A stretch of 49,856 nucleotides of DNA, taken from Thermoclostridium caenicola. Its GTDB lineage: Bacteria; Bacillota; Clostridia; DSM-8532. Each line of letters starts with the position of its first letter. Positions within the stretch are counted from its first letter, which is position 1. Shown here one piece after another: positions 1,728-39,904 of this stretch. The DNA lies in the NCBI RefSeq assembly GCF_900142095.1, contig NZ_FQZP01000015.1:1-49856 (forward strand), given 5' to 3'. The translations under genes were made by a program, and so were the position numbers. The notes below the pieces were generated by a model, which was not told the DNA's origin, searched no databases, and saw only the letters and a program-made list of their open reading frames with translations.

Positions 1728-2726
1728 CTAAGGCCGGCATATGGGACAGGGATAATAGCCCTGGGATGCGGCATCCCGGGCATCGGTAAAGCGGATAAGG
1801 CTTTCCTGGTTAAAATCGGGCCTGCTGCTCAGCTCGATATACTGTCTGCAGGAATCCCGGCAATAGACCGGCTTCCCGTCATGTTCGTAGCCCACAAGCT
1901 CCGGCCTGCGCAGGATTCGGGCGCCGCCAAAGGCGTTGTTTTCATAAGGGACACCGGTTATGACCGGAAAGCCCTGAGCAAAGACCAGCATGCCCTCGTC
2001 GGTGAGGGCCCTTATCCAATCTGCGTCCTCAATCCTTGGGAACCGGAACTTATAGGTTACGCCCATTCGGGCGCTGAAGCCATTGAAACGCGCAATATGG
2101 CTTGCCAAGTCCTTTTCAATTGCCTGACTTACAGCTGCCAGACGGACTGCTTCAAAACCTTCCCGGGTCTGAAATTGGGGGAACATCGCCGTGAAATCCG
2201 TAAACAGGCCTTCCATTTCCTCACCGCTTGAAGCATCGCAAACGATCACCGCATCCTCCAGGGTATACCTGACGTAATACCGGCCATCCGCAGAGACGCC
2301 GGAGTAAGGTTTTTTCGGGTACCAACAGTAGTCCATGATAGTATAGCCATCAGGACCTTCATACTCGTTCAGCGCATAAACCACAAACCCGTCGCGCTCC
2401 AGAAAAACAATAACGGGCATACAGCCCTTCACGCGCATCATGCCCGCTCCATTGCCGTATACCCCGAAAGCATAGTACAGGGCATCAAATAAATGGGTCA
2501 CGGCGATCTCACGGGTGTTTTGGAGGGTCAATCCGCTTTCATCGGACATCCGCCGCCTTTGCTGCGCCAGCACCGTCACCGCATCCTGCACCGCGTTGTC
2601 CACCAACTGATCGTAATAGGCCCGAAGCTCACGATCCTTGTGCAGCATGCGGGATTGTATGCCGGAAATGGTTAAATAGGGACCGATAATCATGATGAAC
2701 ACTATCGCCAGGCTAGTCAGCCTCAT
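1728..2726 (-). CDS. Membrane-anchored protein with C-terminal Ada-like zinc motif (Tad-like locus)
   Basis: 332 residues. One N-terminal membrane segment (about residues 5-24) is followed by a helical segment containing LRAYYDQLVDNAVQDAV and a long probable extracytoplasmic domain. The last ~45 residues carry C-x3-C (YCRDSC) and then GYYPCPICRP. This spacing and the GY-x-PC-x2-C-x-P ending resemble the small zinc-binding module found in Ada proteins and at the end of some surface nucleases. It is the last gene of the Tad-like operon and overlaps the preceding gene by 14 bases. It could be a minor pilin or pilus-tip/wall component (inference). No class III signal-peptide cleavage site is visible. 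The whole protein was not recognised as a named family. Confidence 0.6.
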   Translation of the reverse strand: MRLTSLAIVFIMIIGPYLTISGIQSRMLHKDRELRAYYDQLVDNAVQDAVTVLAQQRRRMSDESGLTLQNTREIAVTHLFDALYYAFGVYGNGAGMMRVKGCMPVIVFLERDGFVVYALNEYEGPDGYTIMDYCWYPKKPYSGVSADGRYYVRYTLEDAVIVCDASSGEEMEGLFTDFTAMFPQFQTREGFEAVRLAAVSQAIEKDLASHIARFNGFSARMGVTYKFRFPRIEDADWIRALTDEGMLVFAQGFPVITGVPYENNAFGGARILRRPELVGYEHDGKPVYCRDSCRQYIELSSRPDFNQESLIRFTDARDAASQGYYPCPICRP

Positions 2727-3267
2727 TTCTCACAAGCCCTCCTGCCCGTACAAAAATGGTCGGCGTTCGGGTATCCGAAAGCAGGAGCATGTCTCGCAAA
2801 GCCGTAGCCATGGTTTTTCCCCTGTTGCGCACCTCCACAAACAGCAAATCGCCGGCCTTCATGTCATATCTTCTGGCCTTGTCAAACACATCCGGGCCGG
2901 GTTCATCCGGGAACAATACGGACAGGATGGCATCCTCTCCCCGGGATATGCGGTTGATCTCATACTCCCCCGTGAATTCAAGGACTGTACCGTTTTGACG
3001 GTATACCGGATTGATCAGGCTTTGCACATGCTCCATGCGGATATCAAAGGTGCATCCGGTGGCATTAAGCCTGCGCACGAACTCGTTGTACATGTTGGGC
3101 GTTATATAACCCGCATCCCTCGCGGAATCCACAAACCGGTTGGTTTCCGTGAAGACCACCGTGTAGGCGGCATCGTCCTGCCGTTCCAGCATGTTCATGA
3201 CAGGAACCAGGAACAGCAGGACCGCGGCCAGGAAGAATCCGAGTATCTTCCACAACGGGCTGTCCAT
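2713..3267 (-). CDS. Small single-pass membrane protein of the Tad-like locus
   Basis: About 184 residues, with a short N-terminus, one membrane segment (LGFFLAAVLLFLVPVMNML) and a soluble domain expected outside the membrane. The domain contains helical and beta stretches such as NRFVDSARDAGYITPNMYNEF, shortened here to its key part DAGYITPNMY; the latter resembles sequences in pilus-associated proteins. An ATG at 3273 overlaps the upstream stop (ATGA), but the AAGGGG site is only three bases from it. The ATG at 3267 has a nine-base spacing and is preferred. No prepilin cleavage motif (G followed by a Glu five residues on) is seen. A pseudopilin-like role is inferred from its size, topology and operon position. 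Confidence 0.6.
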   Translation of the reverse strand: MDSPLWKILGFFLAAVLLFLVPVMNMLERQDDAAYTVVFTETNRFVDSARDAGYITPNMYNEFVRRLNATGCTFDIRMEHVQSLINPVYRQNGTVLEFTGEYEINRISRGEDAILSVLFPDEPGPDVFDKARRYDMKAGDLLFVEVRNRGKTMATALRDMLLLSDTRTPTIFVRAGGLVRNEAD

Positions 3268-3269
3268 GC

Positions 3270-3698
3270 TCATCTTCCCCTTATCTCTATTCTGACCGGC
3301 CTCCCGTAGGCATTGAAGCGGATATCGGCCTGATAGGTGCCGTCAGGATCGATGGACTCAAGCCGGAAGTCCTCATAGCTTTCGCCGTCTATCACAAGCT
3401 CAGGCAATTCCCCAAATTCGGACGGGCCTGCCGTATCTTCATACAGGCTATTCAGAATCCGCTCCCTGTCCGTCCGCCTTCTGGCAAGGAGCAAGTTGGC
3501 TACTTCGTGGCCTGTCATATCACCGAAGCATCCGGAAAAAGTCTCCATCGTGGCCACACCGGGCGTATCCGTATATTCCCTGACGCGGGAAGCATAGTCC
3601 CGGTAATCCCGGTATAGCGAGAAGAAGGACGTAAAGGCCAGAACAAGCAACAGTAAGGCGCAGCCTATGTACAAGGCCCGGTTCATCTGTTCGTTCAT
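3270..3698 (-). CDS. Small single-pass membrane protein of the Tad-like locus
   Basis: 142 residues with a membrane segment at about residues 9-27 (IGCALLLLVLAFTSFF), then a charged region (RDYRDYASRVREY) and a short mixed domain. The start ATG follows the stop of the upstream gene directly, with a GGTGG site inside that gene's end, so the two are probably translationally coupled. It was not recognised as a named family. Context and topology suggest a minor pilin or assembly component, but no processing site for a prepilin peptidase is visible. Confidence 0.6.
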   Translation of the reverse strand: MNEQMNRALYIGCALLLLVLAFTSFFSLYRDYRDYASRVREYTDTPGVATMETFSGCFGDMTGHEVANLLLARRRTDRERILNSLYEDTAGPSEFGELPELVIDGESYEDFRLESIDPDGTYQADIRFNAYGRPVRIEIRGR

Positions 3699-4277
3699 TT
3701 ATTCCACCTGGGCGCAGATGATGCCCCTGACCACCTGGTTGCTGTCATAGATCAAATAGGAACGGAACTTGCCTGCCGGATTGATATATTTCCCGGGAAG
3801 GTTGCTGTTCTCCGCATCCCTTCTTGCCGCATCCCGCGCGGTTTTGCTGACGCTTTTCAAAAGCTCGTCCGATCCGTTGGACAAGATGACGCAGTTGCCA
3901 TCGGCAGAGAGTGACCCCTTTGTTTCAGACACATACTGGGTGTAGCTGCTGATGCTGAGACCCGTGCCCCTTTTAGGATCCAGGTCCAGGGAGCGCCCAC
4001 CGTTTGATCCCAATGTGGCAACAAGGACGATCACTTCTCCGCTTCTGCCTGACAGCGTATTGATGGCGCTGAGGATCTGTTCCCCCCTGACCTCTTTTCC
4101 GTCAAAGGCGCGCAAGTCTTCTTCCGCCATGCTTTGGGCAATGGAATTGATGTTGCTGTTGGCGGCGGCGCTGGCATTCTTCATGGAGCCGAATACGCTC
4201 AGTCCAATGGTAACAACGGCTATGAAAAGCAGAATGGAAACTCCCAGCCAAAGCGCTTTTGAAATGTTACTGTCCAT
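3699..4277 (-). CDS. Pilin-like single-pass membrane protein of the Tad-like locus
   Basis: 192 residues. The N-terminus MDSNISKALWLG leads into a hydrophobic segment (VSILLFIAVVTIGLSVFG), then an Ala/Asn-rich linker (NASAAANSNINSIAQSM) and an outer domain of about 140 residues. It is the first of four small membrane proteins after the TadB/C-like gene, the position where Tad loci usually carry pilin-type genes. It is therefore the best candidate for the assembled or exported subunit (inference). GGAG sits eight bases before the ATG. It lacks the short Flp-pilin length and the usual G/xxxxEF-type cleavage site. Confidence 0.6.
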   Translation of the reverse strand: MDSNISKALWLGVSILLFIAVVTIGLSVFGSMKNASAAANSNINSIAQSMAEEDLRAFDGKEVRGEQILSAINTLSGRSGEVIVLVATLGSNGGRSLDLDPKRGTGLSISSYTQYVSETKGSLSADGNCVILSNGSDELLKSVSKTARDAARRDAENSNLPGKYINPAGKFRSYLIYDSNQVVRGIICAQVE

Positions 4278-4316
4278 ATCGGCATCTCCTTTCCTGATAT
4301 TTTGCTTATTCCAGAT

Positions 4317-6347
4317 TTAAAATCCCGATAGTTGTTCATAAAATGCCGAAATGCTCTGCATTCCGGTTACCACCATGGGAACGATCAGATACAGGATGAT
4401 GAGTGCGTAAACCGGCAAAAAGCCCACGATGTTTCCCAGGTTTTTTCTGCTTTCGACAATATGCTCGTTGAGCTCCTTGCGTTTTTCCTGGTTGTAGCGC
4501 ATTTCATCCTCCAGTTCCTCAAAGGCTTTCTGAACTCCCAGCTCCTCATTGGCCAGCTGGAGGTTTTCAATGATCCCGTCCAGCGGTGGGAATGCGACAT
4601 CCTCCTTGAGCTGTTCCAAGGCTTCTTCGGAACCCGAACTGAAATTGGCCAAACATTTCTGGATGGGATCTTTAAACTGGACCGAAAACATCTCCATCCA
4701 CTCCAGGATCTCCTCCACATGGATTCGGTTCATGTCCTTGAGCATCAGGATAATGGTGTGAAACTGGGCCACTTCCTCCTCCATATCGATCCGCCTGACG
4801 GCTTTCAGAAAGCGAAGGTTCAGAACAGGTATCTGGTATCCCAGTACAAAAAACAACAGGCACAGGAGCAATTCATACCATTTGAACTTGCAGTTGCCCA
4901 GGCGATGGCATTTATCCAGAATCCTCTGGACGGCCAGGTCCTGGGCCGCCTGATCCTGTATTCCCTCTTCCGCCAGCGCCTCTCGGATAAGTGCTTCATC
5001 GGGCTTATGGCGGATCCGCGTCAGGATGTTCCTGTCCATATCGGTTATCTCCTGAAGTTTCTCATACTCCGCGTCGGACAGCCTGCCTCCCAGGTACCCT
5101 CTCGGAATCTCCGGAACATGCAGGATGCGGTGGGCATAGTTCAGATTGAGCCCGATAAACAGGGCAAGCCCAATGATGAACGCCGCAAGGCCTGCCAGGA
5201 TCCTGCGCGTATAAAGAATCCGGATATTGATGCCCGACATGCTCCCCTTGATCAGGGATTCCAACTTCGCTCTTTTCGTCGTGTAGTTGCCGGGCACCAG
5301 CCGGTCCACGACAGCATAAAGGCCCATGTCATACAGCCGGTTCACCAGGGATTTTCGTTCACCGTAAAGCCTTTCCGGCCCGTCAAAGCGTTGGATTCTT
5401 CGTAAGGCCATGCACGCCGCCAATGCGGCGATAATCGTTCCAAGCCCCAGGACGATGCCGACCCGGCTGTTGTAAAAGTTGTCCAGTGGGGTAAAACTGT
5501 TTCCTGCCCATTGCCGCAGGGGCTTGATGAAGAAAATCGGCAGAAGCGAGATAACGTTCAGGCTTCTTAAGGCAAATCTCAGCCTTTCCCGCTTGAAGAT
5601 CTCCGCCCGTATTTCGCCGCTCAGGTGGCTGATCCCCCTGACAAACACCGAACCCCCGTCCTTCCAGGTATCCCCATACTCCCTGGTGATGTAGATCATG
5701 CCTGCCAGGAGCTTCAGGTATTTGTTGGGCGCCACCTCATAGTAATGCTCAAGCCCGGTCTCCTGATCCGCTCCGGACAGGATGTCGCTGATGCGTTCAG
5801 CCTGCATGTAAATCTCATACAATCCTCTTTTATTCAAGGCCTCACAAGCCTCTGACTGGGCATCCTCCACCGACTTGAGCTCGTAATACTTGTGCCTGAG
5901 CAGTTCATGGTATACAAGCTGCTGTTTCAGCAGCCTAATATGGATATGAGATACGAAGATATCCATAACGGTATCCCCCAGGAGGAGCAAGACCAGCACA
6001 AATATAAGCAGCATACCCGGATCGCGGGTGATAAGCCAGAAAAACAGCACCAGCATCACAAAAGCGGACACCGTGATGAGAAATACGGAAGCGGTTTTTC
6101 TGCGGACGGTCCGTTCGTCGAAATGGGTATAAAACTCCAGCCGCTTTCGGATATAGTGAAGGATATATCTTGAGAAACGGCAGCGGTTCAAAATGGCATA
6201 CAGGTATATGAGAAAGGCGGTTATGATCCCACTGCCGCTTCTCAGGCTTTTGCCTCCAAGACTCGCTTTTTGCTGTCTGACGGCCAGCAGGGCAAGCATT
6301 GCCGCGCCCAGGCCGCATGCAATGGCAACGATAAGGTAAGCGTTCAT
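4317..6347 (-). CDS. TadB/TadC-like inner-membrane platform protein, double length
   Basis: 676 residues, about twice the length of an ordinary TadB or TadC. Hydrophobic segments occur at the N-terminus, as a pair near residues 90-130, as a pair near residues 260-310, singly near 385-405, near 490-510 and at the C-terminus (IVGFLPVYALIILYLIVPMV). The segments are separated by charged cytoplasmic loops, including acidic helices near the end (FEELEDEMRYNQEKRKEL) typical of the T2SS-F/GspF fold. The layout suggests TadB-like and TadC-like halves in one chain. The start ATG overlaps the TadA-like stop (ATGA), implying coupled translation with the ATPase that would drive this platform. Family-level identity is fairly secure; the two-half reading is inference. 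Confidence 0.75.
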   Translation of the reverse strand: MNAYLIVAIACGLGAAMLALLAVRQQKASLGGKSLRSGSGIITAFLIYLYAILNRCRFSRYILHYIRKRLEFYTHFDERTVRRKTASVFLITVSAFVMLVLFFWLITRDPGMLLIFVLVLLLLGDTVMDIFVSHIHIRLLKQQLVYHELLRHKYYELKSVEDAQSEACEALNKRGLYEIYMQAERISDILSGADQETGLEHYYEVAPNKYLKLLAGMIYITREYGDTWKDGGSVFVRGISHLSGEIRAEIFKRERLRFALRSLNVISLLPIFFIKPLRQWAGNSFTPLDNFYNSRVGIVLGLGTIIAALAACMALRRIQRFDGPERLYGERKSLVNRLYDMGLYAVVDRLVPGNYTTKRAKLESLIKGSMSGINIRILYTRRILAGLAAFIIGLALFIGLNLNYAHRILHVPEIPRGYLGGRLSDAEYEKLQEITDMDRNILTRIRHKPDEALIREALAEEGIQDQAAQDLAVQRILDKCHRLGNCKFKWYELLLCLLFFVLGYQIPVLNLRFLKAVRRIDMEEEVAQFHTIILMLKDMNRIHVEEILEWMEMFSVQFKDPIQKCLANFSSGSEEALEQLKEDVAFPPLDGIIENLQLANEELGVQKAFEELEDEMRYNQEKRKELNEHIVESRKNLGNIVGFLPVYALIILYLIVPMVVTGMQSISAFYEQLSGF

Positions 6348-8221
6348 CCCACCAAACCCCGGTTCTTCTCAAGAAACCCGGAAAAGGCTTCACCATCCTC
6401 CTGGGACATGGCCTGGAGCATGCGGCGGACCTTTTCCCGGCTGATGGGGTTGACGATGCGGTATTCCCCATCCTGGAATTCTATAATGTTCCGCGTTTCA
6501 AAGCTCGGTCTGTCGGTCATTCTGGCGTAGAATTCAGCGGTGGTCTCCATGAAATCGGTTTGCTTCTGAGCCATGGTCTTTGCCTCTCTGAACGCCTGGG
6601 GATAAGGCTTTTGCGCAGGCAGTTCGATGATCTCGGTGATGCGCTCGATGTACCTTTTCCCCCTGAAATCCCTGGCAAGATGGATGTCGAAGTCCAGGAC
6701 CGACACCACCTGCTGTTCGGCGATCTTTTCATTGTTGAACATCTCGCATTTGAGCAGGGAATTCCTCAGGGAATAGACCAGATCCCTGGTCGTTTTGGCA
6801 TGATGGGTGAAAAGGGTGAACAGGGAAGCCACCTGTGCCATCTGCACCATCCATGCCGCGACTGGGTCGGTGGCCACTTCCCCGAGGATATTGACGCTGC
6901 CGTCGGTCTTTTTCTGGATGTCAAGACCCTCCTGGCCCGAGATGTTTTCAGTTTCCCGGAAGGTGAGGATATTGCGTTCCGGGTAGAGTTTTCTCAGGTG
7001 AAGCTCAAAGGCCATTTCCTGGACCCGCAGGGTCAATGTGGGATAAATATGCCGTACCATGGCCATGAGCAGGGTGGTTTTCCCGCTGCCCTGCTGGCCG
7101 GTGATTGCGGTGATCATACAGCCTTTGACCAGGTACTTGATAAGACTGACGGGAAGTTCTGCGCCCTTGTCGGTGATCAGTCCCTCAAGCGTCACATCGC
7201 GGATATGGAACTTGCGGACAAAGAAGGCCCAGGATTCCGAAAACGGTGGCCTGACCACCAGAACGCGGCTTCCGTCCTTCATCTCGTTCACACGGTAACC
7301 GGTAGCTTCGGACAGCTGGCCGCCCCGGTTATACCGGTAGATGTTCTGGCAGACCCGGCGCAGTTCCTTTTCGCTTTCAAAGCTCAAAAAATCCAGCTTG
7401 ATGGTTTTCCCCCTGAAAAAGATCCATATGCTTTCATAGGATCTCGGCACCTTTTGGGCCGGCTCCCGGGACGGCCAGCCTGATGAAGGCCCGTAGAAAT
7501 CCGCATCGGTAACGCCGGAAACGCCTCCCGAAACGCCGTCGATGTTCATATCCCGGATTTCATCAATGACGCCAAGCCCCTTGTATTTTTCATAAACGGC
7601 CTGGGTGATGATCTCAAGCTTGTCCTCATGGCTCAGCACGGGGCTTTCACGTTCATAGAGTTCCTCTATCTCCCGGGCCGTGATGATATAGCAGGAGCTG
7701 TCGTCATCGGATAATTTTTTCTCACGGTCCAGCCCGTTGGACTCAATCAGGACGGCCAGGGCATCCTGACCATACCGTTTTTTATACTCATGGAGCAGGA
7801 TGAAGAATTTTTCCTTTACCGACAGCAGAAAAGGATTATCGAAGGGTATGGCGCTGCCAAGCCTATCCCTGGGTATATAGGCGCTCAGGATATCATAGAT
7901 AAATGCCTTGACAAACTGCTTGTCCTCGATGGAGCCATGCATGCAGTTTTTCAAAGCCTTCTTCAGCACCAGGCGCTTATTGGCCTGCTTTTTGTATTCC
8001 ACTTCATTGAGACCCAGTTCCAGAAGGTTTGCCCTGGTTATGGCGTCAAGGGATTCCTTGATATGTTCCACCAGGCTCGGTATGGTGTATTTGGAGGCAT
8101 CCTGGTCCTTTTTGAACTCAGGCCTCATCTGGCGGCTTTTCAGAAAGAGCACCAGAAAAAGCGCCAGAGAAGCTAAAATAACGATGATGAACAGCGTGTT
8201 GATCAGGTCGGCGACGGGCAT
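6344..8221 (-). CDS. TadA/CpaF-like secretion ATPase with N-terminal membrane anchor
   Basis: 625 residues. The ATPase half carries a Walker A motif GQQGSGKTT (375-383), the Walker B-like ILGEV with Glu448 and a His-box-like TLFTHHAKT (469-477). The region GLGVIDEIRDMNIDGVSG (215-232) matches the GLGPL-type N-terminal domain of CpaF/TadA. The Asp-box is altered (RVQEMAFEL). Unusually, residues 7-28 form a clear membrane segment, whereas TadA proteins are normally soluble. A ~200-residue helical region lies between the anchor and the conserved part. It probably energises the adjacent TadB/C-like platform. The ATG lies inside the end of the upstream MinD-like gene (19-base overlap) with an AAAGGG site eight bases before it. 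Confidence 0.82.
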   Translation of the reverse strand: MPVADLINTLFIIVILASLALFLVLFLKSRQMRPEFKKDQDASKYTIPSLVEHIKESLDAITRANLLELGLNEVEYKKQANKRLVLKKALKNCMHGSIEDKQFVKAFIYDILSAYIPRDRLGSAIPFDNPFLLSVKEKFFILLHEYKKRYGQDALAVLIESNGLDREKKLSDDDSSCYIITAREIEELYERESPVLSHEDKLEIITQAVYEKYKGLGVIDEIRDMNIDGVSGGVSGVTDADFYGPSSGWPSREPAQKVPRSYESIWIFFRGKTIKLDFLSFESEKELRRVCQNIYRYNRGGQLSEATGYRVNEMKDGSRVLVVRPPFSESWAFFVRKFHIRDVTLEGLITDKGAELPVSLIKYLVKGCMITAITGQQGSGKTTLLMAMVRHIYPTLTLRVQEMAFELHLRKLYPERNILTFRETENISGQEGLDIQKKTDGSVNILGEVATDPVAAWMVQMAQVASLFTLFTHHAKTTRDLVYSLRNSLLKCEMFNNEKIAEQQVVSVLDFDIHLARDFRGKRYIERITEIIELPAQKPYPQAFREAKTMAQKQTDFMETTAEFYARMTDRPSFETRNIIEFQDGEYRIVNPISREKVRRMLQAMSQEDGEAFSGFLEKNRGLVG

Positions 8222-9021
8222 TTTTCACACCCTTTCAGCACATGGTCAACAAGCCCCGAAAAGGCCTGGGCGAACTCATGATCCGGTCCTTTCCTGGCCT
8301 GCAGGCAGTATGCCATAAAGTCAAAAACCCGGCCGGTATTGCAGGCATCCATGAACCCCACATGATAGGGAACCGGAAAAAGAGATTTGGCATCTAAACC
8401 GTATTCCCGGGCGATGTTGCCCAGCGTGAGCGATGATGCGGGTTCATAGCGGGAGATGACGTAAGCGGTCCTTTTGCCAGCCAGCACCGGGTGTTCCTCC
8501 ATGGTCCTGCGGAAATCATCCAGGAGCACCCGGTTCTGACTGAGGCAGCAGACGATAATATCCGAATTCTCCAGAAGTCTGCGGCTGTTGGTCCCTTCAA
8601 GCCCGCTGTGCAGGTCCAGAATGATCAGGTCATAACACGCTTTGGCGCACATGAAAATGTTCAGCAGCAGATCCTGTTTTTCGGCGCACAGGTTTTCCCT
8701 CTTCGCGCTTCCAAACAGGAGATCCAGGCCATGGTTTTTCATCAGGGACCAGGTATAGTCCGGAATCATCTCGGGCCGAAGCCTGCCGTTCCTGTATAGG
8801 CGGATGAGGGCATCCAGTCCCTGATTCGTATAGTCCAGCATCCTGATGGCCGCCTGTTCCCTTTTCCTTAACAGGTAATGTTCCAGGGCATTCATTTCGA
8901 TATGGTTCTGGGTTACCAGGATCCGGTAAGATGTTTTCAGGGCCAGAAAACAGGCTGCGGCCACGGCATTGGCCGTTGTGGCTGCCTGTCCGTGCATGTT
9001 TGACCAAAACGCGATTTGCAA
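8203..9021 (-). CDS. MinD/ParA-like protein with degenerate P-loop (CpaE-like)
   Basis: 272 residues. The fold is suggested by FWSNMHGQAATTANAVAAA at the N-terminus, where a ParA-family P-loop (KGGxGKTT) is expected. Here it reads HGQAATTA, with both signature lysines missing. A Walker B-like strand YDLIILDLHSG follows near residue 135, and later DIIVCCLSQNR matches the typical ParA strand after it. Tad loci usually encode a CpaE-type MinD-like protein that localises the machine, and this gene sits just before the ATPase. The start is TTG, nine bases after AAAGGA. Loss of the lysines suggests weak or absent ATP hydrolysis (inference). Confidence 0.65.
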   Translation of the reverse strand: MQIAFWSNMHGQAATTANAVAAACFLALKTSYRILVTQNHIEMNALEHYLLRKREQAAIRMLDYTNQGLDALIRLYRNGRLRPEMIPDYTWSLMKNHGLDLLFGSAKRENLCAEKQDLLLNIFMCAKACYDLIILDLHSGLEGTNSRRLLENSDIIVCCLSQNRVLLDDFRRTMEEHPVLAGKRTAYVISRYEPASSLTLGNIAREYGLDAKSLFPVPYHVGFMDACNTGRVFDFMAYCLQARKGPDHEFAQAFSGLVDHVLKGCEKCPSPT

Positions 9022-9022
9022 A

Positions 9023-9679
9023 CTACTTCATCCTTTCCGCCTTTTTCAGGCATTCCTTCAACTGCTTCAGCTCAATCCCCGTAAGGCTGTTGAGGATGTT
9101 GAGAACCTGCGCTTTCCAGACCGGAGAAAACCTCCTTATATGAAGCTTTTCCTCGTAAAGGCTCTCCATAAAGGCCGCAGCATTTCCTTCCTCAAAGTAA
9201 AGGACATGGTTCCAGGTCACATTGACCGCATCATACATCCTGCGGTAATAGAGCTTTTCCAAAAAGCCCGGGCTGACCCGGCAGTATTCATAGATGTCAT
9301 AATAGATGATGTGGATATCGGTATAGGGGTATTGCTGCAGCAAGGCCCGGGTCTGCTCCACGGTATGCTCAAAGGCTGAGCGCTCGGCCTTGAGCAGGGA
9401 GACCAGCTTGACATCACGACCAGCATTCAGCGCAAGCTCCGTATCAATCAGCGCATAATCGCATGGATTGGTCTGCAGGAGCTGCTCAAGCTGTTCCCCG
9501 TTATGAAACTGGCGCACCTCGGTCCCGCAAAAATCGTATACATCCCCGTGATCCTCATCATAACCATACCGGCAGGCCGAGTATATCCTGACCGAATAGG
9601 CTGAAGCCAGTATCCGGGCGATGCTCAGCAGGAGTACCTTTTTGCTCTCGGTATGGGAGCCCAGAAAAACGATCCGCAT
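9023..9679 (-). CDS. Degenerate ParA-like protein of the Tad-like locus
   Basis: 218 residues. The N-terminus MRIVFLGSHTESKKVLLLSI has the beta-strand/loop/helix of a ParA P-loop, but the GKT core is replaced by HTESKKV. CDYALIDTELAL near residue 95 looks like the Walker B strand. The C-terminal ~90 residues are helical with many Tyr residues. It sits one base from the next MinD-like gene and has a good GGAGG site seven bases before the ATG. It is probably a sister of its neighbour that has lost nucleotide binding. The assignment rests on short motifs and position and is less certain than for the neighbour. Confidence 0.5.
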   Translation of the reverse strand: MRIVFLGSHTESKKVLLLSIARILASAYSVRIYSACRYGYDEDHGDVYDFCGTEVRQFHNGEQLEQLLQTNPCDYALIDTELALNAGRDVKLVSLLKAERSAFEHTVEQTRALLQQYPYTDIHIIYYDIYEYCRVSPGFLEKLYYRRMYDAVNVTWNHVLYFEEGNAAAFMESLYEEKLHIRRFSPVWKAQVLNILNSLTGIELKQLKECLKKAERMK

Positions 9680-9692
9680 GCCGCATCCTCCT

Positions 9693-10643
9693 CTACAGCC
9701 GGTTGTTCAGATCATCGGTCCGGGAATCTTCCACGGGCCGGTCATCGGGTTGCTCCGTTGCGATATCTGAAGGGGACGGACCGAACCGGCCGGGTTCCCC
9801 ATAGACACCCCTTTTGCCTGAAAAGACAAGCTCCTCATCGATCCGTTTTTCAAAATTCATGCGGTTTCTCACTTCCAGCGCCTCGATGGCGCGGTCCACG
9901 ATGTTCGGATTGGTGCTGATGAGCTCCAGGACCTCAAGATTAGCCGGATAGGTTTTTATAGCATCTTTCTGGATATCGGGCGCCACATACTGGACCGCAT
10001 AAAGGGTGGACCCTTCCACCAGGCTGGCATCGACAATGGCACTGGACATGCGGAGGATCTCCTCCTCGGTCATGTGAAGCCAAATCAGGCTGTTTTGCCC
10101 GTTTTCCCCATGCCGGCAGTCAACCACCCTTTTCTTGGAAAGGATGATATAGTCAAGGCCATTGGGAAACATGATCCGCACATCAACGAATCCGCCTTTT
10201 TCCAGCCTTTCCGGCAGGTTCACCACCGTGTATTCCATCACCCTGAGATCATCCGGATACTCCTCCTCGGCGTAGAACAGGGACCGCGTCACGATGGTGT
10301 TTTTGGTGATATCACAACGCATGACCATCCCCAGGGCTTCCTCCAGGATCAGAACGGCATCGGATGGTATGACCCGTTCATTTACCTCCGCGGGTACCAA
10401 ATCCGTATCCGCAATGGTTTCACCGGCTTTTTTATCCGACTGGAAGACATAGACAAGCGACATGGGATATTCCTCATTGAAGGCCTGCCGGGTTTCCTCC
10501 GTGATCTGCGCCCGCATCTCGGATTCCAGCCGGGCCAGGTTCGAGCGGTAGTACAGATAGCCTCCTGTCAGCAGGAGAACCGATATGGCCAGTCCCAGCA
10601 AAAAGGCCAGGACCATGTGAAAGCGGCGGGGCTTGATAAACAA
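9693..10643 (-). CDS. SAF-domain protein, CpaB/RcpC-like
   Basis: 316 residues. There is one membrane segment at about residues 10-31, then a SAF-type domain beginning near residue 63: YVFQSDKKAGETIADTDLV, then ERVIPSDAV. This 'made permanent by/transitional at' pattern is typical of CpaB/RcpC proteins of Tad and Flp pilus systems. The C-terminal ~60 residues are rich in P, D and E and probably disordered. CpaB normally links the assembly machine to the envelope; with no outer membrane here, a wall-facing role is likely (inference). The start is TTG with GGAGG eight bases upstream. Confidence 0.75.
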   Translation of the reverse strand: MFIKPRRFHMVLAFLLGLAISVLLLTGGYLYYRSNLARLESEMRAQITEETRQAFNEEYPMSLVYVFQSDKKAGETIADTDLVPAEVNERVIPSDAVLILEEALGMVMRCDITKNTIVTRSLFYAEEEYPDDLRVMEYTVVNLPERLEKGGFVDVRIMFPNGLDYIILSKKRVVDCRHGENGQNSLIWLHMTEEEILRMSSAIVDASLVEGSTLYAVQYVAPDIQKDAIKTYPANLEVLELISTNPNIVDRAIEALEVRNRMNFEKRIDEELVFSGKRGVYGEPGRFGPSPSDIATEQPDDRPVEDSRTDDLNNRL

Positions 10644-10688
10644 AACCCTCTCCTCCTTTGAGCAGATTATGCGTTATGGGTGCATGCA

Positions 10689-12128
10689 TCAAACCGGAAC
10701 ACACCCGATTCCCGACATCAGCATGGCCTCATCGAGAACCGCCTGAATATTCTTTTGTTCATTCCTGTTTTGACTGAAAGGATTGGAGACATGGGGAAAA
10801 ATCAAAACATGGTTTGTCTGAAGTGTTTTTTTAAGTTGCCTGATGTCTGCCTTTCCGAAAGGCATAAACACATAAATCCATTCCCGGTTGGGATCAAAGA
10901 GGCGCATCCGATCCATGAAATCCCGGATCAAAGCCAGCTTCCAGTCTGCCGTGGGGCAAAGGACCAGCCGGATATCCGAGCGGTTGAATTCACTGATGGC
11001 TCTTTCGCCGCTAAGGCAGCCAAAATCCCCAACAATCCTGCTGAAACCCCTTCCATAGGGGTTGGCTGGTGTGCTGTGCGCCTTAAAATAAGTGATACCG
11101 TCCGCCACAAAAATGTCCTCATCCACATGGGTCAACCGGTTGCTTCTGCCCATCACGGCTTCCAGGCGCGCCAAATCCCCGTTGCCGCAGTGTTCGGCAA
11201 AGGCTGTCCTGTATCCCCTGGATGCAAAGTAATTGGCAAGGCAGAGCGCGGCGAAGGTGACCCCGGTACCGCGGGCGATACCCGCCACACCTATGATCAG
11301 GCGTCCGGCATAGTTGCCATGCGTACCTGACACGGTCCTTCCGGAATGCTGCAGGCTGTTCATCCGGCTGAGCAAAGCCAGGCAGGTCCTGGCATCCCCG
11401 ATGCGTTTTGCGGGATCATGCCTGACAAGATCCTTTATAAAGTTTGCAAATGCCTCCGAAACACTGCTTTGATCCAGGTGATGCCCAATCTCATCATGGG
11501 TGATGGTTGCCGGATGGACACCCGTAGCCAGATGGAAAAGGGTCATCCCCAGGTTGTACAGGTCGGTTCGTTCATCGGATTTTCCGGAACCGAACTGCTC
11601 CGGCGCCGCATATCCCTGTGTCCCGATATAGACCGTATCCTCCAGAGATTGCTCATTGAAGGACTTGGCGGTACCGAAATCCACCAGGTGCAGCCTGCCG
11701 CTGCCATCCAGGATGATGTTGGAAGGTTTCAGATCCCGGTAGATGACCGGCGGCTGCCTGGAATGCAAATAGTCCAGCACATCGCAGAGCTGCCTGGCCC
11801 ATTCGATCAGCTGCGCTTCGCCGACCTTTCCTCCCGCCTTCAGAAGTTCGGCCAGGGTTTTTCCCTCGATGTAATCCATGACGATGTAGGTGTACCGTTC
11901 ATCCTCGAACAGATCGGCTACTCTTGGCAGCATGGGGTGATTCAGGCATTTCAGGATGTTGACCTCTTGCATCTCGCCGACGGCTGAGGGATTGCCCCTG
12001 TCGATGACTTTGATGGCCCAAAGGTTGGACAGGACCATGTTCTCGGCAAGGAAAACGGTGGAATAGCCGCCCTGACCAATGCGCTTCAATATTCTGTATC
12101 TGAGCCCAATAATCTCCCCTTGCTTCAT
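10689..12128 (-). CDS. Ser/Thr protein kinase fused to a ParA-like domain
   Basis: 479 residues. Residues 10-260 form a Hanks-type kinase: glycine loop GQGGYSTV (18-25), Lys40, YRDLKPSN (130-137, with Tyr in place of the usual His), DFG (150-152) and APE (175-177). All catalytic residues are present, so it should be active. From residue 277 a second domain begins: RLIIGVAGIARGTGVTF, placed like a ParA P-loop but without its lysines, then FSRIVGDFG near 365 resembling a Walker B/switch strand. There is no PASTA or membrane segment, so it is cytosolic. As the first gene after the operon promoter it is well placed to control the Tad-like machine, perhaps by phosphorylating the other ParA-like proteins (inference). 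Confidence 0.85.
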   Translation of the reverse strand: MKQGEIIGLRYRILKRIGQGGYSTVFLAENMVLSNLWAIKVIDRGNPSAVGEMQEVNILKCLNHPMLPRVADLFEDERYTYIVMDYIEGKTLAELLKAGGKVGEAQLIEWARQLCDVLDYLHSRQPPVIYRDLKPSNIILDGSGRLHLVDFGTAKSFNEQSLEDTVYIGTQGYAAPEQFGSGKSDERTDLYNLGMTLFHLATGVHPATITHDEIGHHLDQSSVSEAFANFIKDLVRHDPAKRIGDARTCLALLSRMNSLQHSGRTVSGTHGNYAGRLIIGVAGIARGTGVTFAALCLANYFASRGYRTAFAEHCGNGDLARLEAVMGRSNRLTHVDEDIFVADGITYFKAHSTPANPYGRGFSRIVGDFGCLSGERAISEFNRSDIRLVLCPTADWKLALIRDFMDRMRLFDPNREWIYVFMPFGKADIRQLKKTLQTNHVLIFPHVSNPFSQNRNEQKNIQAVLDEAMLMSGIGCVPV

Positions 12129-12164
12129 ATTTCACCATAATTATGTATGTATTTACAGTTTAGT

Positions 12165-12193
12165 ATTATACCAGCATTTTTTATATTTTTCAA
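12165..12193 (-). promoter_or_regulatory. Sigma-A promoter of the kinase/Tad-like operon
   Basis: On the minus strand TTGAAA (12188-12193) and TATAAT (12165-12170) are separated by 17 bases in AT-rich DNA. The predicted transcript starts near 12158, giving a leader of about 30 bases before the kinase ATG. Confidence 0.75.
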
Positions 12194-12230: not shown

Positions 12231-12264
12231 GAAAAAGGATAGCTGTCATAGCGACAGCTATCCT
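12231..12264 (-). terminator. Intrinsic terminator after hisE
   Basis: A perfect 12-bp stem (12236-12247 with 12253-12264) and a 5-base loop are followed on the minus strand by TTTTTC. It separates hisE from the promoter of the kinase operon, so the two units are independent. Confidence 0.85.
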
Positions 12265-12289
12265 CATTTTTCACCGGTCAACGGGAAAA

Positions 12290-33447: not shown

Positions 33448-34395
33448 TTAATCTTCAGATGGAGCAAGCTTTAAGCCGAGCGCCGCCAGTTTCTGGACCA
33501 CTTCCTCAAGGGACTTGCGCCCGAGATTTCTCACTTTCATCATTTCTTCCTCGGTCTTGCTGATCAAATCTTCAACCGTATTGATACCGGCTCTCTTCAG
33601 GCAGTTGTACGACCTGACTGAAAGATCCAGTTCCTCAATGGTCATCTCCAGAATCTTGTCCCTTGCGGGCTCGCCCTTCTCAACAAGAACCTCCGTATTC
33701 TTGGCCCTGTCGGTCAGGTTGATGAAGAGATTCAGGTGATCGCTCAGTATTTTGGCCCCAAGGCTGATTGCTTCATCGGGAGCTATGGAACCGTCGGTCC
33801 ACACTTCAATGGTCAGCTTGTCATAGTCGGTAATCTGACCGACACGTGTGTTCTCAACCGTATAGTTGACCTTTTTTACAGGTGAGTAAATGGAGTCAAC
33901 CGGAATCATGCCGATGGGCTGATTGGACATCTTGTTCTTTTCAGCGGGAACATAGCCCCTGCCATGGCTCACGTTGAGCTCCATATAGAACCTGTTGTTT
34001 CCGCTCACCGTAGCAATATGCAAATCCGGATTCAGAATCTCAACGTCCGCATCCGGCTTGATATCGGACGCCTTGATTTCGCCCTCACCCTCAAAGTCGA
34101 TGTACAGGGTCTTGGGCTGTTCGCTGTGGAGCTTTAGCCGAAGTTCCTTGATGTTCAGGATGATTTCGGTCATATCTTCCACAACACCGGGAATGGTGGT
34201 GAACTCATGCAGCACGCCGTCGACCTTGATGGATGTAACCGCTACTCCCGGCAGAGATGAAAGCAGTATCCTTCTCAGGGAATTGCCAAGCGTGATGCCA
34301 TAGCCCCTCTCCAAAGGCTCAATGACAAACTTCCCGTAGGTATTGCCTTCCGCGCTCTCTACACACTCTATCCTTGGCTTTTCCATTTCGATCAT
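33448..34395 (-). CDS. rpoA: RNA polymerase alpha subunit
   Basis: 315 residues. The N-terminal domain dimerises and nucleates polymerase assembly ([34 protein letters not shown]). The C-terminal domain ([28 protein letters not shown]) binds UP-element DNA and activators. Length and domain order are standard. It lies between rpsD and rplQ, the classic alpha-operon position. GGAGG lies eight bases before the ATG at 34395. Confidence 0.98.
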
Positions 34396-34455
34396 CAGTC
34401 AACCCTCCTTGGGTTATTAGAATTCCGAGCGCAAGAGCTATCGTAACCCATAGGT

Positions 34456-35082
34456 TTACTTCGAGTACAGCTCTACGATCAGGTGCTCCTGTACCTGGAG
34501 GTCGATATCCTCGCGGGTAGGCAGTGCAACGACCTTGCCCGTAAGATTTTCCTGATCGACTTCAAGCCATTTCGGTACGACCTTGGAGCCGGTAACGTCA
34601 AGGATTTCCTTGAACCTGACGGATTTCCTGCTCTTTTCGCTGACGCTGATGGCGTCATTTACCTTTACAAGGTATGAGGGAATATTGACGCGCTTCCCGT
34701 TAACTTCGAAATGGCCATGTGTCACAAGCTGACGGGCTTCGGCACGGGTCGTGGCAAATCCCATCCTGTAAACCACATTGTCAAGCCTTGTTTCCAGTAT
34801 CTGAAGCAGGAGTTCGCCTGTGATACCCTTCTTGCGGGATGCCATTTCAAAATACTTTCTGAACTGACTTTCAAGAAGGCCATAGAACCTCTTTGCCTTC
34901 TGCTTTTCGCGAAGCTGAAGACCATATTCTGAGAGCTTCTTTCTCTGAGCGCCATGCTGGCCGGGAGCATATGCCCTTCTGCTGATAGCACACTTATTTC
35001 CATAACATCTTTCGCCCTTGAGGAAGAGTTTCTGCCCTTCCCTTCTGCAGAGCTTGCAAGATGCACCTGTATATCTAGCCAT
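34456..35082 (-). CDS. rpsD: Ribosomal protein S4, zinc-binding form
   Basis: 208 residues. It binds 16S rRNA early in 30S assembly and, in several bacteria, represses its own operon. The N-terminal four-Cys site (C-x2-C in SCKLC, then RCYGNKC) marks the zinc-binding type. The S4 RNA-binding domain ([34 protein letters not shown]) is intact. It lies between rpsK and rpoA with a GGAGG site about 11 bases from the ATG. Confidence 0.98.
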
Positions 35083-37831: not shown

Positions 37832-38488
37832 TCATACTCCATCCGGTTGACGCCCAAGGGCTGCCATGATATCCCTGAATGTGGATTCAATGTCCTTGTC
37901 ACCGTCAACCTCGATAATCAGACCGCGTTTGCTGTAGAAGTCAATGAGTGGACTGGTCTGATCATGGTAAGTTTTCAGGCGCCTGAGGACAGTCTCCTCA
38001 CGGTCATCATCCCGGATATAGAGGGCCGAGCCGCAGGCATCGCAGATGCCCTCCTGCTTTGGCGGATTGCCGGTGATGTGGTAAACCTTTCCGCAGGAAC
38101 ACATCCTTCTGCCCGACATCCTTTTCACGATCACGTCGTCATCAACGGTAATATTGATCACGGTGTCTATCTTCTGGTTCCTGGCTTTCAGCATTTCTTC
38201 GAACATCTCGGCCTGTGGGAGCGTTCTCGGGAAGCCATCCATGATGAAGCCGTTACGGCAGTCATCCTGTTGCAGCCTGTCCTTCACGATCTCACAGGTC
38301 AGGTCATCCGGAACAAGCCCGCCTGATGCGAGGATGTCCGATACCTTTTTACCAAGCTCGGTTTGCTGTTTTATGTTTGACCTGAAGATGTCACCCGTTG
38401 AAATATGGGGAATCTTGAGTGCTCCGGACAGCAGCACGGCCTGCGTTCCCTTGCCTGCTCCGGGAGGCCCTAGCAGTATCAGATTCAT
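37832..38488 (-). CDS. adk: Adenylate kinase, zinc-type
   Basis: 218 residues, cytosolic. It balances AMP, ADP and ATP. P-loop GPPGAGKGT (7-15), the NMP-binding region (ISTGDIFRSNI), GFPRTLPQAEMFEEML and the lid are complete. The lid carries four Cys (MCSCGK and CDACGS) as in zinc-binding Gram-positive enzymes. The first pair is C-x-C in place of the usual C-x2-C. The ATG at 38488 opens the conserved NLILLGPPG; the extra 33 codons upstream lie over the promoter and are not coding. Confidence 0.97.
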   Translation of the reverse strand: MNLILLGPPGAGKGTQAVLLSGALKIPHISTGDIFRSNIKQQTELGKKVSDILASGGLVPDDLTCEIVKDRLQQDDCRNGFIMDGFPRTLPQAEMFEEMLKARNQKIDTVINITVDDDVIVKRMSGRRMCSCGKVYHITGNPPKQEGICDACGSALYIRDDDREETVLRRLKTYHDQTSPLIDFYSKRGLIIEVDGDKDIESTFRDIMAALGRQPDGV

Positions 38489-38515
38489 AGCGTATCCAGC
38501 CTCTTTTACATATAT

Positions 38516-38545
38516 AATATAATGTATTCTATAAGGCGTCGCCAA
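38516..38545 (-). promoter_or_regulatory. Promoter before adk
   Basis: On the minus strand TTGGCG (38540-38545) and TATATT (38516-38521) are separated by 18 bases. A 17-base alternative reads TTATAT. It would restart transcription after the secY hairpin. Confidence 0.5.
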
Positions 38546-38567
38546 AACCCAGTTGACAGTGGCGCGG

Positions 38568-38596
38568 CAAAAGCGGATGGTACACACCCGCTTTTG
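38568..38596 (-). terminator. Hairpin after secY
   Basis: CAAAAGCGG and CCGCTTTTG form a perfect 9-bp stem with an 11-base loop, 15 bases after the secY stop. The T-run is inside the stem's right arm, so termination may be partial. Confidence 0.5.
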
Positions 38597-38611
38597 TACC
38601 GCTGCCAGGTT

Positions 38612-39904
38612 TTATTCCAGGAATCCCTTGTAGTGCCTCATCATCAGCTGGGACTCAACAGCCTTCATGGTATCGAGGGCAACACCGACCATGATGAGAA
38701 CCGATGTACCGCCGAACCACACGTTCCGAAGGCCAGAAACGAATCCGAGCAGGATGGGCAGTACGGCTACTATAGCCAGGAAGAAGGCACCGAACCATGT
38801 GATGCGGTTCAGCACTTTCGATATATAGTCCGCGGTAGGCTTGCCCGGACGTATACCGGGGATGAACCCGCCGTTTTTCTTGATGTTGTTAGCCAGTTCC
38901 ACCGGATTGAACACCATGATGGTATAGAAGAAAGTAAAGAACAGGATCAGCAATGCATATACCACCATGTACAGCCAGTGCTGATGGAAGTTTGCAATCC
39001 AGAGGAGGAACTTGCTGGTGGTATTGGGGGCCACCAGTCCGATAAGGGTGGGCAGGAATGCCAGGAATGACATGGCGAAAATGATGGGAATAACGCCGGA
39101 AACATTCACCTTCAAAGGAATATGCGTGCTCTGGCCGCCATACATTTTCCGACCAACCACTCGCTTGGCATACTGGACCGGAATCCTTCTTTCTGCCTGG
39201 GTTACCCAAATGACGAACATGACCACCGCAACAAAGACCACGATGATGGCTGCCACGATCAGGATACCGATGGCCAGCTTATTGTCGAGGGAATAAGCCT
39301 TGACAATACCGTACAGTGTGCTTGCTGCCTGGGGTCCTCTAGAAATAATGTTAACGAAAATGATCAGGGATATACCATTTCCAATACCGTACTCGTTGAT
39401 CTGCTCACCAAGCCACATGATGAAGGCCGTACCTGCCGTCAGGGCGAAGGTGATGGTCAGATATGAAAGTACGCTGGGTTTCACGATTGCGCCTCTGAAG
39501 CCAATATAGGTGAAGGTGGCCTGCAGGAAACCCAAAATCACGGTTCCGTAACGCACCCACTGGGCCAGCTTCTTCCTGCCTTCCTCGCCTTCCTTCTGGA
39601 GCCTCTCCAGGGCTGGAATGGCGATGGTCAAAAGCTGCATGATGATGGATGCGTTAATATAGGGCGTAATGGACATGGTAAAGATACTGGCGTTTTCAAA
39701 CGCACCGCCGCCTATGATGTTCAGGAACCCAAACAAGCCGCTCTGGTTCTGAGCCATGCTGGCCAAAACGCTGGCGCTGAGTCCGGGTACAGGGATATAC
39801 ACGCCCACCCGGTAGACTACAAGAAGAAGGAATGTGATCAGGAGCTTCTTCTTGAGATCCGGGATCTTCCAGGCATTTTTGAGCGGGGCCAGAAAGTTTT
39901 CCAT
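38612..39904 (-). CDS. secY: Preprotein translocase subunit SecY
   Basis: 430 residues with ten membrane segments. It forms the Sec channel for protein export and membrane insertion. Typical segments are GVYIPVPGLSASVL, SITPYINASIIMQLL, GIGNGISLIIFVNI and the cytoplasmic loop RRIPVQYAKRVVGRKMYGG with Arg residues that contact SecA/ribosome. NGGFIPGIRPGKPTADYI marks the loop before the last helices. It starts right at the rplO stop and is followed by a hairpin. Confidence 0.98.
   Translation of the reverse strand: MENFLAPLKNAWKIPDLKKKLLITFLLLVVYRVGVYIPVPGLSASVLASMAQNQSGLFGFLNIIGGGAFENASIFTMSITPYINASIIMQLLTIAIPALERLQKEGEEGRKKLAQWVRYGTVILGFLQATFTYIGFRGAIVKPSVLSYLTITFALTAGTAFIMWLGEQINEYGIGNGISLIIFVNIISRGPQAASTLYGIVKAYSLDNKLAIGILIVAAIIVVFVAVVMFVIWVTQAERRIPVQYAKRVVGRKMYGGQSTHIPLKVNVSGVIPIIFAMSFLAFLPTLIGLVAPNTTSKFLLWIANFHQHWLYMVVYALLILFFTFFYTIMVFNPVELANNIKKNGGFIPGIRPGKPTADYISKVLNRITWFGAFFLAIVAVLPILLGFVSGLRNVWFGGTSVLIMVGVALDTMKAVESQLMMRHYKGFLE

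Follow-up and report, generated by a model that had tools for sequence, protein, structure and literature searches.

Comparison with described machines

Processed pilins are usually considered a requirement of type IV filament machines. Among these machines, the Tad/Flp (type IVc) pilus stands nearest to the locus analyzed here, a ten-gene operon of Thermoclostridium caenicola carried by a 49,856-nucleotide stretch of DNA (hereafter the window), which is the entire contig C15 of this genome (G000; contig NZ_FQZP01000015.1). The ten open reading frames occupy the minus strand between 12128 and 1728, in the order K1, SAF2, M3, M4, TadA5, TadBC6, s7, s8, s9 and s10, with gaps of 0–45 bases or overlaps of 4–19 bases. 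The unit is clearly derived from the Tad pilus system, with which it shares a TadA-type ATPase, a putative two-part platform, a CpaB-like SAF protein, ParA-like TadZ proteins and the operon layout. However, its ATPase is membrane-anchored, its TadB and TadC parts appear fused, its ParA-like proteins are degenerate and, in one branch, the TadZ-like protein bears a kinase. Besides, the locus comprises four unrelated outer proteins, contains neither a Flp pilin nor a prepilin peptidase and is closely linked to proteins of the DUF5704 family. Since two defining features of Tad pili, the pilin and the prepilin peptidase, are thus missing from the locus, the unit is not to be filed as a Tad pilus.

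With type II secretion systems, the locus has in common an ATPase, a platform and a pseudopilin-like layout, and its partner protein would probably be exported by the Sec pathway first; however, its ATPase belongs with TadA, and neither a secretin nor recognised processed pseudopilins accompany it. As in archaeal type IV pili with a double-domain platform (PMC6668835), a single platform protein would contain two T2SSF-like halves, whereas here these seem to follow the order TadB-TadC, in the manner of a secondary fusion. The conjugative type IV secretion systems of Bacillota plasmids resemble it by their presence on the same large plasmids and by the proximity of coupling and replication-relaxation proteins, but no VirB4 is found in the operon, and neither a coupling protein nor a relaxase lies near the chromosomal copies. 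Finally, the type VII secretion clusters T7SSg and T7SSh that stand beside Tad genes (PMC11217815) share a neighbourhood of Tad components in Paenibacillus and Acetivibrio, whereas the window and nearly all related loci are free of type VII genes. No paper on DUF5704 and none describing the ten-gene unit was found in the literature searched, most subscription journals being outside its coverage.

As the locus holds no recognisable pilin or peptidase and travels with DUF5704 proteins, it probably builds or displays a surface attachment structure. The explanation that we favor, with somewhat better than even confidence, is a Tad-derived motor assembling or displaying a wall-anchored attachment structure. 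The ATPase TadA5 would drive the platform to move or assemble s7 to s10, which would act as uncleaved pseudopilins forming a short structure across the cell wall. This structure would export to the cell surface, or display on it, a large Sec-secreted DUF5704 protein anchored by a partner with SLH or stalk domains, and the displayed protein would serve attachment to surfaces or to other cells. In the lineage of the window, the kinase domain in the slot of the TadZ receiver would gate the machine by phosphorylation, while on large plasmids the machine could support mating contact. More tentatively, the system may be a separate branch within the type IV filament superfamily, in which subunits that are never cleaved display a giant wall-anchored DUF5704 protein for cell contact, on Bacillota chromosomes and large plasmids, with kinase-TadZ regulation in one branch. 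A widespread relative that has kept the motor, but in which neither pilin nor peptidase can be recognised, would reveal the essential parts of such machines and the route by which they were reused. It would also give a first functional lead for DUF5704 and for the nameless conserved protein families of the locus, and it prompts a look at the contact mechanisms of large Bacillota plasmids typed as non-mobilizable.

Motor components and the kinase-bearing branch

The motor components were shown, or are strongly indicated, to be of Tad type, with a TadA-type ATPase, a CpaB-like SAF protein, degenerate ParA/TadZ-like proteins and, probably, a fused TadB/TadC-like platform. TadA5 matches TIGR03819 with an E-value of 6e-11, yet far under the cut-off of this model, and its whole core aligns with canonical TadA (hhalign 98.4%, 268 columns). 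In 16 diverse members of the family, the Walker A motif, the GEV glutamate, the arginines of DGSR and RKF and the THHAKT His box are invariant or nearly so, and since these catalytic motifs are kept, TadA5 should hydrolyse ATP. In the Caulobacter ATPase CpaF, the matching Walker B glutamate is essential (PMC11300603). According to hydropathy, an N-terminal transmembrane segment is present on TadA5, as well as on SAF2 and s7 to s10. In the ATPase tree, the TadA5 family forms one clade (100/99) beside the Tad ATPases and apart from PilB/PilT, with long branches that call for caution. The ATPase hence groups with Tad; a grouping with an unrelated system, considered beforehand as a possible refutation, is not what was obtained, and the membrane-anchored TadA-like ATPase of the original prediction is borne out by both its full-core homology and its N-terminal segment.

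The ATPases of two genomes, G056 and G032, branch at the base of this clade. Both genomes possess a set consisting of a kinase, a SAF protein, a MinD protein, a shorter and unanchored TadA and separate TadB-like and TadC-like genes. In G032, this kinase-led set, which includes an s7-like gene (E-value 1e-7), comes directly after a canonical Tad operon (Flp, TadE, CpaB, CpaE, TadA, TadB, TadC). From their gene content and position in the tree, both sets can be read as stages between canonical Tad and the present form.

The SAF component of Tad systems (CpaB/RcpC) is represented by SAF2, of which 15 out of 20 relatives match TIGR03177, at best with an E-value of 4e-11. The ParA-like component (TadZ/CpaE) is represented by M3, M4 and the C-terminal half of K1, all of them degenerate. 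Taken singly, M3 and M4 are too degenerate for recognition; among their relatives, ParA/MinD models match 6 out of 21 for M3 and 12 out of 25 for M4, and the MinD likeness first proposed for these two proteins holds at this family level. As for the platform, no credible Pfam match was obtained in 29 members of the TadBC6 family. Its predicted structure consists of two similar halves in which long helices surround a bundle of short ones, and residues 518–623 of this model match the N-domain of PilC (2whn) with a Z-score of 8.6 over 101 of 103 residues, a match between helical bundles that is within the range reachable by chance. Sequence comparison with TadB and TadC was weak (6–71%), and searches of solved structures with the TadBC6 and s10 profiles returned nothing credible. 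Because the C-terminal half of TadBC6 aligns with the TadC-like gene of the intermediate, the order of the halves would be TadB-TadC, which looks like a secondary fusion. Altogether, these data fit a TadB-TadC fusion but are no proof of it. For the double-length TadB/C-like protein announced by the original prediction, a two-half T2SSF-like fold is suggested by the predicted structure, and the sequence likeness is weak.

K1 matches the protein kinase domain with an E-value of 1e-48 and, by direct reading of the window, its catalytic motifs YRDLKPSN and DFG are intact. Hence, the domains and motifs expected for the kinase-ParA fusion, the SAF protein and the TadA-like ATPase were all recovered by profile search or direct reading. 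Full-length relatives of K1 were found, among others, in the family of T. caenicola and in four Paenibacillus loci. On four plasmids and in two further loci (L114 and L121), the slot of K1 contains a protein that has only the ParA-like half in common with it. This slot is occupied on Alkalihalophilus, Paenibacillus and Lysinibacillus plasmids by a protein of 460–480 amino acids with a different N-terminal half, receiver-like by eye. As these plasmid proteins have the layout of TadZ, the kinase appears, from domain matches, to have replaced the receiver-like half in the branch of the window. No K1-type gene was found in 32 loci with at least 6 kb of upstream sequence, and most loci of gut Clostridia are devoid of it. 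The kinase domain is therefore the mark of one branch and is not general to the system, and control by phosphorylation, initially proposed for the apparatus as a whole, is not supported as a general feature.

All ten genes are under purifying selection. This is illustrated by the ratios of nonsynonymous to synonymous substitution rates (dN/dS) calculated against a genome of the same genus (G003), which range from 0.06 to 0.16 in eight genes and reach 0.30 in s8; for M4 the ratio is below 0.04, with saturated synonymous sites.

Outer proteins and the DUF5704 candidate product

The outer part of the locus consists of s7 to s10. Apart from a weak Ada-like zinc motif ending s10, no known-family match was found with Pfam in any member of s7, s9 and s10. 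A class III prepilin motif was present in none of the 78 members of these three families according to a rule that recognised four out of four canonical Flp/TadE controls, s8 being judged by eye only. The predicted layout of s7 is pilin-like, with one long N-terminal helix followed by a small alpha/beta domain. Hence, s7 to s10 are regarded as candidate pseudopilins that would not need cleavage. All four are single-pass membrane proteins as first described, although s10, with its 332 amino acids, is not small. An apparent fusion between s10 and an SLH protein was rejected, as it most likely arose from contamination of the s10 profile by an SLH protein of G014. In the kinase-less loci of gut Clostridia (L095–L150), three to five s7-like paralogues stand in a row, often with spoIVB-like and murC-like genes nearby.

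Among the ten genes, no prepilin peptidase (A24) was detected, the single A24 gene of the genome being located elsewhere. The operon gave no match to a secretin, which is not expected in a cell with one membrane. The original prediction that the operon contains no gene for Flp pilin, prepilin peptidase or secretin was accordingly confirmed by the motif rule and the profile searches. In three genomes that possess the operon (G001, G002 and G004), no A24 peptidase was recognised, although a divergent one may be missed. The use of this absence as proof of a peptidase-free function was weakened, since the divergent A24 genes that lie near Flp in relatives score around the threshold.

The original prediction left the product of the apparatus unnamed. 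From adjacency and co-occurrence, the candidate is now a DUF5704 protein with a partner bearing SLH or stalk domains. In Tumebacillus, Paenibacillus rubinfantis, a Vallitaleaceae metagenome-assembled genome (MAG) and others, the operon is followed by a protein with SLH domains and a DUF5704 protein of about 1,100 amino acids; in the Vallitaleaceae locus (L085), this pair is inserted in the operon, separating s7 from s8. On plasmids of Thermobacillus, Alkalihalophilus, Paenibacillus and Lysinibacillus, s10 is followed, sometimes after one small gene, by a protein with SLH or stalk domains, DUF5704 and often GGDEF. DUF5704 was found on 23 plasmids, 21 of which are among the 24 that bear the system. 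It occurs in 4 of 398 genomes sampled across the phylum, all four with the system, and in 11 of 61 relatives, all belonging to the system-bearing family and all 11 carrying the system; related genomes and plasmids are among those counted, so that the counts do not represent independent events. Nevertheless, adjacency in several genera supports a linkage between DUF5704 and the system. In the genome of T. caenicola itself, two C-terminal pieces of DUF5704 proteins were found, sharing 69% and 78% identity with their counterpart in G023. Each is cut by a contig end, a break of the kind that a repeated gene would cause, and the DUF5704 domain itself lies beyond it.

A conserved C-terminal sequence resembling GDVVFYHADKSSxDDFxxxGTH is common to nearly all DUF5704 proteins; it may serve for sorting or simply mark where a domain ends. 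The form GDVxFYxADKxSxDDxxxxGTH was noted in the DUF5704 proteins of L082, L086, L088, L121, L191, L192 and L207 and of the plasmid loci L241–L244. The GGDEF genes located behind DUF5704 on several plasmids fit a control of attachment. On L241 (pTHECO01), L242, L243 and L246, DUF5704 is followed by both GGDEF and HD-phosphohydrolase genes, which hints at control by cyclic-di-GMP. Besides, the Vallitaleaceae DUF5704 protein matches the Athe_2463 domain; Athe_2463 of Caldicellulosiruptor bescii is secreted in abundance on xylan (PMC5865380). The Athe_2463 domain was rejected as a marker of the system, being present in 28 of the 398 genomes, 27 of them without the system. Separately, in five genomes (G107, G222, G245, G342 and G372; loci L232 and L234–L237), Athe_2463-domain proteins and a partner similar to SLH or to copper-amine-oxidase-N (stalk) proteins stand beside canonical Tad operons or within them, suggesting that such surface pairs are linked more generally to Tad-type machines in one-membrane bacteria.

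Several points weigh against a machine displaying a DUF5704 attachment protein, in addition to the non-independent counts and to the possibly fortuitous structural match and weak sequence comparison of the platform given above. The predicted model of s7 retrieved no pilin-fold match in a structure search, although a pilin-like fold is still compatible with it. In T. caenicola, DUF5704 is present only as the two fragments, away from the operon, and in most gut Clostridia and several Paenibacillus it does not stand beside the operon. Moreover, a DUF5704 protein bearing a Sec-type signal could leave the cell without the motor.

Distribution, alternative roles and genomic context

A full-length TadA5 relative was found in 29 genomes of the same family, T. 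caenicola included, and a stop-bearing copy in one more, out of 61 genomes searched. The core of the system is thus present in nearly all members of the family. Within the limits of the contigs, loci from about 27 of these genomes show an identical ten-gene order. Among 84,980 species genomes, a pattern scan yielded 351 relatives, and taxonomy and gene order are described for the best 80. These include Paenibacillus, Tumebacillus, Anaerobacterium, a Vallitaleaceae MAG and many MAGs of gut Clostridia, and nearly all of them possess SAF, M3, M4, TadA, platform and s7–s10-like genes in this order. The core order SAF-M3-M4-TadA-TadBC-s7-s10 is thus common to the operon of the window and its relatives. 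In an even sample of the phylum, the system was detected in only 5 of 398 genomes and is therefore widespread but patchy. It is also carried by 24 large plasmids of PLSDB, all typed as non-mobilizable, in the records of which telling names are found only on the ATPase, SAF, SLH and DUF5704 proteins. No phage match was obtained for the system, and a phage origin was rejected. The absence of co-occurrence in other genomes, set beforehand as a possible refutation, was not what was found, since the order is conserved in the family, in Bacillota genomes and on plasmids. The Gram-positive Tad variant initially proposed stands as a Tad-derived apparatus of Bacillota, with the correction that it is not confined to Clostridia and extends to large plasmids.

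The presence of the system on 24 large plasmids raises the main alternative, a mating-pair apparatus, in which the TadA-like ATPase would be VirB11-like and would move DNA or build a mating pilus, the chromosomal copies being remnants or adopted. VirD4-type coupling proteins and replication-relaxation proteins are encoded near the system on pTHECO01, pSSII-1 and a P. urinalis plasmid and in L121, and pBsph-like L. sphaericus plasmids are self-conjugative (PMC13239906), pSSII-1 being a large L. sphaericus plasmid with the system. We nonetheless judge this explanation unlikely. A clear VirB4-type ATPase was found at least on pTHECO01 and the P. urinalis plasmid (E-values of 5e-84 and 4e-81), which indicates that a conventional transfer system is present there; VirB4 is clear on 2 of 6 plasmids checked, and outside the operon, which weakens a fully conjugative role. 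VirB4, coupling protein and relaxase are all absent among the ten genes, neither of the latter two was found in the window or in the chromosomal loci checked, and the coupling protein of pTHECO01 retrieves 20 plasmids, a set only partly the same as that of the system. VirB4-type ATPases are located at 33465–34490 of NC_019898.1 and 38126–39145 of NZ_CP118110.1, two plasmids typed as non-mobilizable. Since attachment serves mating, the attachment and mating readings may both be true in part.

An ordinary Tad/Flp pilus, which would obtain its pilin and prepilin peptidase from a canonical Tad locus elsewhere in the genome, appears improbable. The genome does have a separate canonical-type Tad locus on contig C24 (TadA of 426, TadB of 253 and TadC of 299 amino acids, a TadE-like protein and a large TadG-like one), a Flp1-like pilin on C19 and its sole A24 peptidase on C46, and the position of the kinase-led module directly after the canonical operon of G032 agrees with such a supply. 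However, the canonical locus is already equipped with an ATPase and a platform pair. Throughout the kinase-led family, the outer proteins are its own, and s7, s9 and s10 among them have no prepilin motif. The three operon-bearing genomes in which no A24 peptidase was recognised also argue against it, with the reservation already made for a divergent enzyme. As for the secretion of soluble effectors, type II-like or aiding type VII in a one-membrane cell, the ATPase, platform and pseudopilin-like architecture recalls the type II system, Tad genes have been described beside T7SSg and T7SSh (PMC11217815) and an ATPase gene of the FHA-EssC/FtsK type follows the operon in Anaerobacterium chartisolvens (L134:16594-21183), but this role is very improbable, as such an EssC neighbour was noticed at a single locus out of about 80, neither WXG100 genes nor toxin-immunity arrays were found to recur beside the operon, and neither an EssC/EccC ATPase nor WXG100 is encoded among the ten genes.

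The features of the window are collected in Table 1. As originally described, the ten packed genes are all present behind one promoter.

Table 1. Coordinates of the operon and its expression signals in the window.
Feature	Description	Position	Strand	Basis
Hairpin	terminator-like, 14 pairs and T tail, closes the upstream hisI/hisE genes	12235..12265	-	consensus scan
Promoter	sigma-70-like, TTGAAA-17-TATAAT, TG before -10	12165..12193	-	consensus scan, 11/12 matches; by itself no evidence of function
K1	479 amino acids; Ser/Thr protein kinase domain (residues 11-244) and degenerate ParA/TadZ-like domain (about 263-464)	10689..12128	-	profile matches
SAF2	316 amino acids; membrane-anchored SAF protein, CpaB/RcpC-like	9693..10643	-	PF08666, 27.2 bits (cut-off 21)
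M3	218 amino acids; degenerate ParA/MinD-like, without intact Walker A	9023..9679	-	6/21 relatives match AAA_31; alignment
M4	272 amino acids; degenerate ParA/MinD-like, deviant Walker A without lysine	8203..9021	-	12/25 relatives match AAA_31; alignment
TadA5	625 amino acids; membrane-anchored TadA/CpaF-like ATPase; Walker A, GEV glutamate and His box kept	6344..8221	-	profiles, alignment, tree
TadBC6	676 amino acids; putative double-length TadB/TadC-like inner-membrane platform	4317..6347	-	predicted structure; sequence evidence weak
s7	192 amino acids; single-pass, long N-terminal helix and alpha/beta domain, pseudopilin candidate	3699..4277	-	predicted structure, no prepilin motif
s8	142 amino acids; single-pass, fastest evolving of the ten	3270..3698	-	dN/dS, comparison of loci
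s9	186 amino acids; single-pass, best conserved of the four outer parts, no known family	2713..3273	-	alignment, profile search
s10	332 amino acids; single-pass, extracytoplasmic domain, Ada-like cysteine tail	1728..2726	-	6/21 relatives match Ada_Zn_binding weakly

The hairpin (12265–12235) stands between the operon and the upstream hisE. The upstream neighbours, named from their sequences, are housekeeping genes, i.e., hisI/hisE, homoserine dehydrogenase, rpoB/rpoC and ribosomal protein genes. On the other side, adjoining the contig end, positions 79–1308 of the minus strand encode a protein of 409 amino acids with a helical-looking N-terminal part and without NCBIfam match. Finally, positions 1438–1789 of the plus strand contain a broken lipoprotein-like frame, with VKKIKCLLLLFLLIFIIASC and then a stop, which is possibly a pseudogene.

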